The position numbers and the translations under genes were made by a program. Of a stretch of DNA of 57,762 bases, positions 33,379-36,987 are shown piece by piece (the first letter of the stretch is position 1; each line of letters starts with the position of its first letter). The stretch comes from an uncultured Bacteroidota bacterium (GTDB taxonomy: Bacteria; Bacteroidota; Bacteroidia; Flavobacteriales; Flavobacteriaceae), in assembly GCA_913041125.1 (NCBI GenBank), contig CAJWHM010000010.1:1-57762 (forward strand), read 5' to 3'. The notes under the pieces are model-generated. The model searched no databases and was not told the DNA's origin. It saw nothing but the letters and a program-made list of their open reading frames with translations.

Positions 33379-34563
33379 ATGTCAAAAATTTATCTGTTAT
33401 TTATCATATTTTTCCTCTTTATAAAGTGTGACTCAAACCCGGGAATTATTGAAAGTATTTTAAATAAAGATATTTCTGAAATCAGAAAGGTAATGATAAA
33501 TAAAAAAAAACATGAAATTCAAATACTTTTAAGTCAAGTAAAAAGAGATAAGTCTGGAAATATTTCATTTATTGAAGATTCTTATCAGCTTGATGAAAAC
33601 AAATATTTTTATCCAGCTAGTACGGCAAAACTTCCAATTGCAATTCTTGCTCTCCAAAAAATTAAATCTTTAAGAGATCAAGGGATTCCAATTAATGCTG
33701 ACACACCTTTTTTAATAAAAAACAAAAATGGAGAAACTATTATTGACAAAGATTCTACGAATATAAATGGTGATGTCACAATAAATCACCTAATAAAAAA
33801 GATTTTTTTAGTAAGTGATAATGACGCTTATAATTATCTTTTTGACTTCTTAGGGCGAGACTACATTAATAATGAATTGATAAAAAGAGGACTTAAAAAA
33901 ACACAAATCCATCATAAATTTCTTCTTGGAGCAGATAATGTTAATACATGGGAATATAAATTCATTGATGAAAATCAAAACAAAATATTTCATCAATCCT
34001 CAATGTCTTCAAAATATACTTTAGAACCACATAAATTAAATGGTGTTCTTAAGGGGAAAGGTTATATAAGCTCAGGGGAATTGATTAATGAGCCAATGAA
34101 ATTTGATAAAAAAAATAGAATTTCAATACGCGATCTCCAAGGGATTCTCAAACGGATTATTTTTCCTGAAGAATTTAATAAGAAAGAACGTTTTGAATTG
34201 GAGGATACAGATTACAAATTTTTAAGGTATTGGATGAGTAGAACTACTTTAGAGAGTAATTATCCTAATTATAAAGATCAAGAATATTGGGACAGTTATT
34301 GTAAGTTTTTTATTTATGGAGACAAAAAAGGAGCAATGACACCTGAAATAAGAATATACAATAAAGTTGGTTTTGCTTATGGGACATTGACTGATGTAGC
34401 TTACATTAAAGATAATAATACTGGTCTTGATTTTTTTTTAACAGCTACTGTTTTAGTTAATGAAAATCAAATATTTAACGATAATAATTATGAATTTGAG
34501 GAGCTTGGAATTCCTTTTCTAGCGTCTTTAGGGAGGGAGATTTTAATAGAACTTAATAAATAA
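33379..34563 (+). CDS. Class A beta-lactamase-like serine hydrolase, exported
   Basis: This 394-residue protein has an N-terminal signal (about 1-16) and a possible lipid Cys17 (the lipobox is imperfect, FIKC). The penicillin-binding fold shows the SxxK motif 'PASTAKLP' (Ser81, Lys84) and SDN ('LVSDNDAYNYL', 146-148). The third KTG-type motif is less clear; 'KVGFAYGTLTDVAYI' near the C-terminus may serve. It could be a peptidoglycan-modifying or ester-cleaving enzyme rather than a true beta-lactamase, since the 394-residue length exceeds class A enzymes (about 290). It is the last gene of the GH109-kinase-nucleotidyltransferase run and its stop abuts the convergent oxygenase stop. Confidence 0.75.
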   Translation: MSKIYLLFIIFFLFIKCDSNPGIIESILNKDISEIRKVMINKKKHEIQILLSQVKRDKSGNISFIEDSYQLDENKYFYPASTAKLPIAILALQKIKSLRDQGIPINADTPFLIKNKNGETIIDKDSTNINGDVTINHLIKKIFLVSDNDAYNYLFDFLGRDYINNELIKRGLKKTQIHHKFLLGADNVNTWEYKFIDENQNKIFHQSSMSSKYTLEPHKLNGVLKGKGYISSGELINEPMKFDKKNRISIRDLQGILKRIIFPEEFNKKERFELEDTDYKFLRYWMSRTTLESNYPNYKDQEYWDSYCKFFIYGDKKGAMTPEIRIYNKVGFAYGTLTDVAYIKDNNTGLDFFLTATVLVNENQIFNDNNYEFEELGIPFLASLGREILIELNK

Positions 34564-35514
34564 TTATTTTTTTATCAAGCCTAAATCAATTAAGCGTTTA
34601 TTTAAAAATTCGCCTGCTGTAATGTCTTCGTATTTTTTTGGATTACTTGAACTAATATTTTGAGAAAGACAATTTAGTGGCATTTCAGGAATTGGATGCA
34701 TAAAAAAAGGGAAAGAATAGCGAGAATTACACCAAAATTCTTTTGGGGGATTAATAACCCTATGTATTGTTGAAGGAAGAAAATTATTAGTTAATCTTGA
34801 AAGCATATCGCCTATATTAATCATAACTTCATCGGGTTCTGCAATTGCATTAATCCATTTTTTTTGTCTATTAAGAACTTGCAATCCGTTACCTTGTGCA
34901 CCAATTAATAGTGTAATTAAATTTATATCTCCATGTGGAGCTGCACGTTCTGATCGATTTGGAGGCTTTGATATAGGGGGATAGTGAATCGCTCTTAGAA
35001 TTGAATTTCCTCCTTCAATAAAATGGTCAAAATAATTTTCTTCTAAACTCAGATATAGTGCTAAAGCTTTAAGAACATATTTTGCAGTTTTTTCTAGTTT
35101 AAGAAACACCAAGGCACCAATTTTATTAAAATTGTCAAGTTCTTTAACAATTAAATTTTCAGGATAAACGTTTTTTAGATTTGTTTTAAAATTAAGATCT
35201 TGCCCAAAATGCCAGAATTCTTTTAAATCTCCTACTGATCTCCCTGCAGCATGTTCTTTCCCAAAACGAGTATAACCTCTTTGGCCTCCACCATTTTTCA
35301 CTTCATATGATTTTTTGGTTTCTTCTGGAAGATCAAAAAATAATTTCATTTCATCATATAATGATTTTTGAAGTGATTCTTCCAAAAAGTGTCCCTTTAA
35401 AGCAAGAAATCCAATTTTACGAAAAGCAGTTCCAATATGTTCAACGAAATAAGATTTTTGTTTTGGATCATTTGAAAGAAAGTCTTTTAAATCTGCTTGA
35501 GGGATTTTATTCAT
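34564..35514 (-). CDS. 2-oxoglutarate/Fe(II)-dependent oxygenase, isopenicillin N synthase-like
   Basis: This 316-residue protein is counted from the ATG at 35514 (MNKIPQADLKDFL). A longer frame from 35535 exists, but that ATG lies inside the terminator hairpin and adds 'DPLFFI', unlike the family. The conserved N-domain is present ('FRKIGFLALKGHF...'). The iron triad is His194-x-Asp196 ('APHGDINLITLL') and His251 ('STIHRVINP'), and the 2-oxoglutarate-binding Arg265-x-Ser267 is in 'NSRYSFPFFM'. The substrate is unknown; the family includes amino-acid and plant-hormone-like oxidases. Its start codon lies three bases after the T-run of an intrinsic terminator, so expression should need read-through or anti-termination. 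Confidence 0.85.
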   Translation of the reverse strand: MNKIPQADLKDFLSNDPKQKSYFVEHIGTAFRKIGFLALKGHFLEESLQKSLYDEMKLFFDLPEETKKSYEVKNGGGQRGYTRFGKEHAAGRSVGDLKEFWHFGQDLNFKTNLKNVYPENLIVKELDNFNKIGALVFLKLEKTAKYVLKALALYLSLEENYFDHFIEGGNSILRAIHYPPISKPPNRSERAAPHGDINLITLLIGAQGNGLQVLNRQKKWINAIAEPDEVMINIGDMLSRLTNNFLPSTIHRVINPPKEFWCNSRYSFPFFMHPIPEMPLNCLSQNISSSNPKKYEDITAGEFLNKRLIDLGLIKK

Positions 35515-35517
35515 AAT

Positions 35518-35546
35518 AAAAAAAAGCGGATCCATCGATCCGCTTT
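35518..35546 (-). terminator. Intrinsic terminator or attenuator before the 2OG oxygenase
   Basis: On the minus strand GCGGATC and GATCCGC form a 7-bp stem (35526-35532 with 35537-35543), extended by AAA/TTT, around a GATG loop. Eight T residues follow (35518-35525). The T-run ends three bases before the oxygenase ATG, the geometry of a transcription attenuator. Confidence 0.85.
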
Positions 35547-35555
35547 ATTAATAGA

Positions 35556-35608
35556 TAAGGAAAGCTACAGCGGACCAAGAGTGGGCACCTGCTGTCTCGA
35601 ATTCCTTA
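35556..35608 (-). ncRNA. Two-stem leader RNA element
   Basis: Read leftwards, TAAGGAA (35602-35608) pairs perfectly with TTCCTTA (35556-35562), and inside it ACAGC (35591-35595) pairs with GCTGT (35567-35571). The 19-base apical loop contains AGGTGCCCACTCTTGGTCC. The fold overlaps the second half of the 20-codon ORF and lies just upstream of the terminator, so translation of the ORF would melt it. No known riboswitch class is recognised by eye; Rfam comparison (for example Flavo-1 and other Bacteroidota motifs) is needed to rule one out. Confidence 0.5.
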
Positions 35609-35627
35609 AATGATTACAATAAGACAT
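35565..35627 (-). CDS. Candidate 20-residue leader peptide
   Basis: ATG at 35627 to TAG at 35565-35567 encodes MSYCNHLRNSRQQVPTLGPL. It is preceded at good spacing by an extended SD-like sequence, which is exceptional here. No run of one amino acid suggests classical amino-acid attenuation, but the RQQVP...GP context could stall ribosomes (inference). A second frame starts 16 bases upstream at the ATG whose A is base 35643 and spans the SD itself (MKGGVYVLL). It may control read-through of the downstream terminator. Confidence 0.55.
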   Translation of the reverse strand: MSYCNHLRNSRQQVPTLGPL

Positions 35628-35630
35628 AGA

Positions 35631-35641
35631 CACCTCCTTTC
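35631..35641 (-). promoter_or_regulatory. Extended Shine-Dalgarno-like sequence, 11 nt
   Basis: GAAAGGAGGTG on the minus strand is a perfect complement to the CACCUCCUUUC commonly found at the 3' end of bacterial 16S rRNA, with TCT before the ATG of the 20-codon ORF. Flavobacterial genes generally lack SD sequences because the anti-SD is sequestered, and I see no comparable start site among the other genes in this window. Confidence 0.7.
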
Positions 35642-35718
35642 ATATTTAGTTAAACATTACTGTTGTCACAGCACAAACTATTCACTTCAAATTTAATTAA
35701 CACTTGAATTATAACAAA

Positions 35719-36987
35719 TTATTTTACAATTTTTTTAAGCGTTAATCCTTGAACTAAAATTGTAAATAAAACAACCCCATAAGTAAGAATTAAGATAAGG
35801 TCTTTTCCAGATCCGATTGAGTCTGGTAAATTTAAAGCTAGAGCAATGCTTAATCCTCCACGAAGTCCTCCCCAAGTTATAATTAAAGCTGTATTTTTTT
35901 CAAAAGATTTTTTTATAGATAAGATTTTAATAGGAACAAAAACGCCTATACCTCTTGATATTACAACTACAATAATCATAATTAAAATGATTAAGAGATA
36001 TGAAAAATCAAAGTTTTGTAGAATTGGAATTACCTCTAATCCAATTAAAATAAATAAAATAGCATTTAAGGTTTCGTCCAACAAATGCCAAAATTTATAA
36101 ACATAATCTCCCATTACTCTTTGAACTCCCTCTGCTTGGTCATCACCATCAATGTTTTGATTCAGGAAAAGACCCATTACAACTACACCTAAAACAGCAG
36201 AGAAGTGAAATATATGAGAAATTACTGGAACAAGTAAAACCATTGAAAGAGTTATTAAAACCTCTAGTTCTACATGTTCATTTTCAATATATTTTACAAG
36301 TTTTAATCCTAAAAATCCCATTATTGCTCCTAATACAATCCCTCCAATTACTTCAGTCGCAAATAAAGACCCAACACTTGCCAAAGTGACATTTTCAATT
36401 CCCTCTAACTTCATACTTAATAGAGTAAGAAAAACCACTACTCCAATTCCGTCATTAAATAAAGATTCTCCAGCAATGCGTGTTTCAGTAATAGAAGAAA
36501 GATTCATTTTTTTAACCATAGCTAAGACAGCTATTGGATCAGTAGGAGCTATGAGAGCTCCAAAAAGAAGGCAATCTACATAACTTAAACCTAACTCTGA
36601 AAGACCAAGAAAACTTTGTTCTGTCAACCAAAAAAGTCCAGTTCCAACTGCAAAAGTAGAAAAGACTACTCCAAAACTTGCAAGTAGTAAGATGGTTAAC
36701 TTATCTTTTAAAAGTTCATGAACATTAACACTTATAGCTCCAGCAAAAAGTAAAAAGGGAAGCATTACATCAATAAGTAAAACACTAAAATCAAATTGTT
36801 CTGTTAGTGATGTTGCGAAGGTTAAAAGTTCTGGAGATATTACACCTGCTATTAGAATAACAGCTGATAAAGCAATTGCTAAAACCATTAATCCTATGGT
36901 TTGAGGAAGCTTAAGAATTCTTAGGTTAATAATAGAAAAAATCGATGCTAGTAATAGCAAGAAAGTTGCGAGTTCAAGAAAATTCAT
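35719..36987 (-). CDS. Sodium:proton antiporter (CPA1/NhaP type)
   Basis: This 422-residue integral membrane protein has about 12 helices. Characteristic elements are 'DVMLPFLLFAGAISVNVHEL', 'ALIAPTDPIAVLAMVKK' (the TDP-containing ion-site helix), 'IAGESLFNDGIGVVVFLTLLS' (the ND-containing helix) and 'WGGLRGGLSIALALNLP'. These place it in CPA1. It exchanges Na+ (or K+) for H+ across the inner membrane, expected in a marine bacterium. No C-terminal cytosolic regulatory domain is present, so it is a short form. Its stop lies about 90 bases upstream of the leader RNA region. Confidence 0.9.
   Translation of the reverse strand: MNFLELATFLLLLASIFSIINLRILKLPQTIGLMVLAIALSAVILIAGVISPELLTFATSLTEQFDFSVLLIDVMLPFLLFAGAISVNVHELLKDKLTILLLASFGVVFSTFAVGTGLFWLTEQSFLGLSELGLSYVDCLLFGALIAPTDPIAVLAMVKKMNLSSITETRIAGESLFNDGIGVVVFLTLLSMKLEGIENVTLASVGSLFATEVIGGIVLGAIMGFLGLKLVKYIENEHVELEVLITLSMVLLVPVISHIFHFSAVLGVVVMGLFLNQNIDGDDQAEGVQRVMGDYVYKFWHLLDETLNAILFILIGLEVIPILQNFDFSYLLIILIMIIVVVISRGIGVFVPIKILSIKKSFEKNTALIITWGGLRGGLSIALALNLPDSIGSGKDLILILTYGVVLFTILVQGLTLKKIVK

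Follow-up and report, generated by a model that had tools for sequence, protein, structure and literature searches.

The window analysed here is a stretch of 57,762 nucleotides from an uncultured member of the Flavobacteriaceae, and the element under study occupies its minus strand between a gene for a Na+/H+ exchanger and one for a 2OG-Fe(II) oxygenase. An initial annotation had described at this place an 11-nt complement of the anti-Shine-Dalgarno (anti-SD) sequence, a tiny ORF, a two-stem RNA fold and a terminator fused to the start of the oxygenase gene. All of these parts are present on the minus strand at the positions given: the complement is GAAAGGAGGTG (35641-35631), and the 16S end of a relative confirms its complementarity; the ORF has 20 codons (MSYCNHLRNSRQQVPTLGPL*, 35627-35565); helices of 7 bp and 5 bp lie across the ORF in the single-sequence fold; and a 10-bp terminator stem is followed by eight T residues, which stop three bases short of the oxygenase ATG. 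To these we add a promoter (35718-35688), a 5' hairpin (35672-35659), a mimic of the 16S tail (35561-35552) and occurrences of the element without an oxygenase. The order of the parts is thus promoter, 5' hairpin, extended SD, ORF, 16S-tail mimic and terminator. As judged from its sequence, the element forms an independent RNA gene, roughly 170 nt long, that carries a promoter and a terminator of its own; it is presumably transcribed. Folded as a single sequence, the window's copy reaches -38.2 kcal/mol (z -2.57), moderately better than shuffled sequences, 2 of 200 of which folded equally well. The features of the locus are as follows.

35719..36987, minus strand: upstream neighbour, Na+/H+ exchanger (nhaP-like; PF00999, E 1.2e-54), outside the element
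35688..35718, minus strand: promoter of Bacteroidota type, TTTG (35718-35715), 19 nt, TAAATTTG (35695-35688)
35659..35672, minus strand: 5' hairpin GCUGU-GACA-ACAGU, its GACA loop shared by 82 of the 83 distinct rows
35629..35641, minus strand: extended SD GAAAGGAGGUGUC, with 12 nt of complementarity to the 16S tail
35565..35627, minus strand: 20-codon ORF MSYCNHLRNSRQQVPTLGPL, stop included; 81 of the 83 rows have 19-21 codons
35602..35608, minus strand: ORF segment UAAGGAA, with which the mimic can pair instead in fold B, 96.4% of cells paired
35593..35597, minus strand: ORF segment AGACA, pairing in fold A with UGUCU at the start codon, with pair changes
35584..35589, minus strand: ORF segment GGUGCC, partner of the SD's GGUGUC (fold A), 97.2% of cells paired
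35552..35561, minus strand: 16S-tail mimic UCCUUAUCUA (16S: UCCUUUCUA), 3 nt past the ORF stop
35518..35546, minus strand: intrinsic terminator, 10-bp stem AAAGCGGATC/GATCCGCTTT (35546-35523), loop GAUG, T-run 35525-35518
34564..35514, minus strand: downstream neighbour, 2OG-Fe(II) oxygenase (ATG 35514; PF14226, PF03171), optional and outside the element

Ribosomes of Bacteroidota hide their anti-SD, and those of ocean flavobacteria normally ignore SD signals. The 16S 3' end of a genome of the same genus (G001; a 16S gene was found in two of the seven genomes searched, one of them partial) reads GGAACACCUCCUUUCUAGAG, so the complementarity of the element's SD is real; it spans GAAAGGAGGUGU (12 nt) in the window and UAGAAAGGAGGUGU (14 nt) in many relatives. 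The predicted duplex between SD and tail amounts to -21.9 kcal/mol in the window and to -21.2 on average (range -22.0 to -14.7); the corresponding values are -17.7 for the rpsU of the window's own genome and -19.9 and -21.0 for two other rpsU genes. A search for GAAAGGAGGT followed by ATG within 3-13 nt returned only rpsU and the element's ORF from the window's genome (79% complete), rpsU being the sole other strong-SD message found there. This rpsU lies elsewhere in the genome (G000:C2), and the sequence of the element's ORF differs from that of bS21. The same pattern applied across the genus gave 30 fetched loci, made up of 16 elements, 10 rpsU genes and 4 chance occurrences. Two loci of genus g180 (L168 and L169) carry GAGAGGAGGTG in place of GAAAGGAGGTG, and in a decaying copy in genus g153 (L172) the SD (AAAGGAAGTG), mimic and terminator have been damaged jointly, with a 21-codon ORF remaining.

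Excerpts of PMC9976891 describe SD control in Flavobacteriales as limited to rpsU, based on 200 genomes, and report that strong SDs, that of rpsU among them, are favoured by F. johnsoniae ribosomes devoid of bS21, which initiate faster on rpsU. Since that 200-genome analysis, as the excerpts present it, used protein-coding genes, it could have missed a 20-codon ORF that is not annotated. For the element described here, a link to free 16S tails, that is, to bS21-poor ribosomes, would be the natural inference.

Conservation was read from an alignment (A2) of 90 sequences in 83 distinct rows, which was fitted to the model and whose related rows are not independent; the conservation of the 5' hairpin and SD in it is partly built in, and the mimic, its ORF partners and the terminator lie outside the search pattern. 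The ORF measures 19-21 codons in all but two of these rows, the exceptions being L180 (25 codons) and L192, which has AGG in place of the usual start codon, and its AUG stands 13-14 nt from the first G of the SD in 81 of the 83. Insertions and deletions within the ORF come in threes, while lengths outside it vary freely: the helix-3 partner ends 44 or 47 nt from the AUG in 80 rows out of 83 (40 once, 45 twice), the distance from stop codon to mimic is 3-8 nt in 79 of 83, and that from mimic to terminator is 4-12 nt. UAA serves as the stop codon in 61 rows, UAG in 16 and UGA in 6. The reading frame thus appears to be under selection, and the 20-codon ORF is probably translated. Its peptide drifts, with a mean identity of about 0.27 between 11 representatives, which makes the peptide stalling considered in the initial annotation unlikely. 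Synonymous changes are enriched (0.372 versus 0.224 under uniform change, the pairs compared not being independent), so some selection on the peptide is possible. Given the drifting peptide and the changing gene downstream, it is the act of translation that seems to be selected.

The annotation had also proposed to look for homologous leaders, and SD, ORF and folds are indeed kept in relatives, both within the genus and in 8 further genera of the Flavobacteriaceae, well beyond anything chance would give. Of the 36 other genomes in the genus, 32 gave a strong match to a 221-base BLASTN query (E 1.9e-17 or better); no match of that strength came from 23 genomes in other families of the order, where the best reached 2.6e-5 over 63 query bases (G038). 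A covariance model, R1, was run on 38 genomes of the genus and located the element in 34 of them, the window included; most of these positives are R1's own training set, whose 32 sequences match by construction. In the wider family, R1 together with a broader model, R2, placed true elements in 17 of 397 genomes, from nine genera counting the window's. Weak family matches were set aside, among them that of G489, which consists of a terminator only. Because most of the family is without the element, autoregulation of bS21 does not need it.

An exact-pattern scan of an 84,980-species collection found 83 stretches, and the 80 listed bear titles of bins or single cells of Flavobacteriaceae, Flavobacteriales or Bacteroidetes; these 80 loci were selected through the exact 5' hairpin (P1) and SD pattern. 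A sample of 395 genomes of the order held nothing convincing besides the window: 21 further genomes matched weakly, the 22 stretches have neither AAGGAGG nor AAAGGAG within 320 nt, and most of those shown are terminators. Among 395 genomes of the class, only the window and G819 matched, the latter with a terminator and no SD in the stretch shown. Viral contigs yielded no match to the exact pattern. Rfam, including the Flavo-1 model that the annotation had singled out, gave no match in the window at the gathering cut-off; at E values up to 10 there were 14 matches, each scoring under its cut-off and none with a name that points to Flavobacteria. Nothing recognised as this element was found in open-licence PMC papers.

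The gene that follows the element varies. Our 94 loci reduce to 87 distinct ones, about a third of them from the window's own genus, and 84 of these have downstream DNA. The oxygenase follows in 43 of the 84, counting L168 and L169, which show the oxygenase as well (41+2=43; other same-strand genes 10-2=8). A different gene on the same strand follows in 23, with promoter and terminator kept: 15 are glycosyltransferase-like by an N-terminal motif and 8 are other genes. In the remaining 18 the downstream gene is convergent, on the opposite strand, and promoter and terminator are both kept; in seven loci (L194, L210, L222, L224, L232, L242 and L243) both neighbours lie on the opposite strand. The usual upstream gene is the nhaP-like exchanger, which tblastn detects a short way ahead of the element at many of the 94 loci. 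The motif TAnnTTTG, which we take to be a promoter by the Bacteroidota consensus, keeps a constant distance to the hairpin in 32 of the 33 loci of the genus, the exception (L024) lying at a contig end; in the wider set it is in place in 65 of 84 loci, partial in 9 and missing in 10, as against 26 of 1434 control windows. Bins DQCR01 and CAJWGK01 each have two contigs with an element (L227 and L230; L239 and L255), in one case clearly of different types, which could reflect two copies or mixed bins.

Since the element is kept next to convergent or different downstream genes, serving as a cis-leader is not supported as its conserved role. Directly behind the element in L165, L167, L192 and L213 lies a homologue (51-57% identity) of a beta-lactamase-fold gene that in the window (33379-34563) is separated from the element by the oxygenase gene (34564-35514); the oxygenase therefore comes and goes while the element stays. 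The beta-lactamase-fold gene is convergent in the window, and at one site the oxygenase is present in some loci and absent from others. Control of read-through into the oxygenase, the role assigned in the initial annotation, is likewise not supported as a conserved function, 41 of 84 loci being arranged otherwise, and survives as probable leak-through in the window's genus. There the oxygenase ATG lies 0-18 nt past the T-run in all 32 loci measured, so that no promoter fits between terminator and gene and the oxygenase is probably reached by read-through; its expression in this genus probably depends on leak-through past the terminator. In one genome (G029:C131, L069) a second oxygenase, 59% identical, immediately follows an apparent alanine dehydrogenase-like gene and has no element; it is either a diverged copy or contamination.

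The strand just past the stop codon reads UCCUUAUCU in 65 of 83 rows, which is nearly the 16S tail UCCUUUCU, and in 3 distinct rows it is the exact CUCCUUUCU; overall the mimic is a strand of the type UCCUU(A)UCUA, a copy of the 16S tail able to pair with the SD. RNAalifold pairs it with the SD. In fold A, this helix is joined by two others, between GGUGUC and an ORF segment (GGUACC type) and between the start-codon region and AGACA; in fold B2, the mimic pairs instead with the ORF codons UAAGGA. Among the 32 sequences found by BLAST, pairs of fold A are formed in 99.3% of cells and those of fold B in 93.1%. Over the 83 rows, fold A as a whole is paired in 97.0% of cells versus 40-54% when slid, and its internal helices in 99.1% (mimic-SD), 97.2% and 93.5%; B2 is paired in 96.4% in the wide set, where 4 rows have A-U instead of G-C at one pair. 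In the start-codon helix, a C-G pair becomes U-A in 10 rows and U-G in 6 and is unpaired in 5, and one pair is open in 14 rows, which as judged by eye is partly due to a register shift. There is hardly any variation in the SD-mimic helix, and covariation is therefore of little help there. Forcing fold A puts it 5.8 +/- 3.2 kcal/mol above the free ensemble, compared with 1.5 +/- 2.8 for B2; the SD-mimic core alone costs 1.8 +/- 1.8 kcal/mol, and fold A is energetically better in 8 of 83 rows. Energy models thus favour fold B, in which the SD is open, and count against a fully closed state. We take A and B to be two competing folds of one strand and do not regard the pairing as proof of a closed state.

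Most double changes sit in the 5' hairpin (P1) and the terminator. Changes in the stem of the hairpin keep its pairing, most rows having come from a pattern that contains this hairpin; the terminator stem is paired in 99.4% of cells, with double changes at 7 of its 10 pairs, and its loop is GAUG in 82 of 83 rows. In a lineage with MED-G20 among its titles (L194, L222, L224, L242, L243 and similar loci), the mimic matches the 16S tail exactly or almost so, the peptide is another one (MSIEKNSKEL...), and TATATTCA replaces TAnnTTTG.

From the anatomy, conservation, reading frame, stand-alone contexts and two strong-SD sites, all read directly from the DNA, we propose how the element may work. The extended SD would drive translation of the ORF, and hence mainly by 30S subunits with an exposed 16S tail, those poor in bS21. 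Where such ribosomes are scarce, the mimic and two ORF segments would hold the SD and start codon; where they are common, the real 16S tail would out-compete the mimic and the ORF would be translated, a ribosome at the stop codon covering the mimic and keeping the SD open. The most likely output would be competition with rpsU for bS21-poor ribosomes, which would set the gain of bS21 autoregulation. The preference for bS21-poor ribosomes, the switching and the output are what we infer in this scheme. Taken whole, our best reading is a stand-alone RNA that is translated mainly by exposed-tail ribosomes, is closed by its mimic and competes with rpsU for these ribosomes, and we hold it tentatively, giving it somewhat less than an even chance.

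The main rival, which we consider unlikely though well worth keeping in view, is a trans-acting small RNA, in which translation, or the lack of it, would expose or hide regions such as the GACA hairpin or the GAUG loop for other RNAs or a protein and the SD switch would set its state or stability. Both loops are constant on changing stems, and among perfect 4-nt loops in the fetched DNA GATG occurs in 12 of 12 distinct element terminators and in none of 14 other distinct terminators, three of which read CATC and are perhaps elements on the other strand; however, GATG loops also occur in unrelated terminators picked up by the covariance model. An action of the mimic in trans on rpsU was considered and rejected, the pairing being an ordinary -8.3 kcal/mol, when 16 of 1904 sites in the window reach -12 or lower. 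We regard as improbable the attenuator put forward in the initial annotation, by which translation of the leader governs transcriptional read-through into the oxygenase. The close and regular spacing of the oxygenase ATG behind the T-run in the window's genus speaks for it, as does co-occurrence, since the four genomes of the genus without the element (G002, G011, G020 and G021, 56-82% complete) are also without the oxygenase. Against this stand the convergent or different genes downstream in nearly half of the distinct loci, and G024 (58% complete), which retains the element with no oxygenase match and has a same-strand 819-codon ORF following on the contig. The oxygenase also occurs in 8 of 23 genomes from other families of the order (52-63% identity), and no such leader was seen, by eye, directly upstream of those eight genes. 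A candidate antiterminator, GGUCCGCU against the 5' arm of the terminator, fits the window and by inspection is lost in relatives with another stem; no conserved antiterminator was seen by inspection of the relatives.

Two further explanations turn on what the reading frame is for. That the element is the gene of a functional micro-protein which happens to have a strong SD would agree with the conserved length and frame, and with peptide positions 3, 7, 12 and 15, conserved at 89-95% among the 56 rows of 20 codons; yet identity between lineages averages about 0.27, several of the conserved residues fall in paired RNA segments and the mimic is left unexplained, so we judge this quite improbable. 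Least probable of all, in our estimate, is an untranslated structured RNA that retains an SD-like strand for folding alone. Fold A does pair the SD strand, but the strand's match to the 16S tail is better than that to its internal partner, and the near-constant distance from SD to AUG and the indels in multiples of three speak against such an RNA.

Returning to our best reading, the element would be a regulatory RNA with a maskable SD, and it has no Rfam match above cut-off. It provides a second extended-SD site beside rpsU, found in nine genera of Flavobacteriaceae and 17 of the 397 genomes sampled, and it makes the purpose of bS21-poor ribosomes directly testable. It is possible, though we would not call it probable, that the element represents a new RNA class, one reading the ribosome itself, a self-closing decoy message opened only by ribosomes with an exposed 16S tail, and that with rpsU it forms the first two-member SD regulon of Flavobacteriales, tuning the supply of bS21 in small-genome ocean bacteria.

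Leader-peptide attenuators and SD-sequestering leaders of the erm type combine a short ORF, competing folds and a maskable SD, all of which the element has as well. It differs from them in that the masked SD belongs to the short ORF itself, in that the downstream gene is not constant and the peptide not conserved, and in that inspection showed no conserved antiterminator. Dual-function small RNAs of the SgrS type are stand-alone, with their own promoter and terminator and a small ORF. The element shares this organisation with them and differs in its drifting peptide, in an SD of a type that the genome otherwise hardly contains and in its 16S-tail mimic. It resembles flavobacterial rpsU, the autoregulated gene for bS21, as described in excerpts of PMC9976891, in an extended SD that fits most of the 16S tail and in an expected preference for ribosomes lacking bS21. 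Unlike rpsU, it encodes no ribosomal protein, its peptide drifts, and it is a stand-alone RNA with a 16S-tail mimic, a 5' hairpin and a terminator. Because it does not encode bS21, the element is not a member of the rpsU system, though its first step would work alike.
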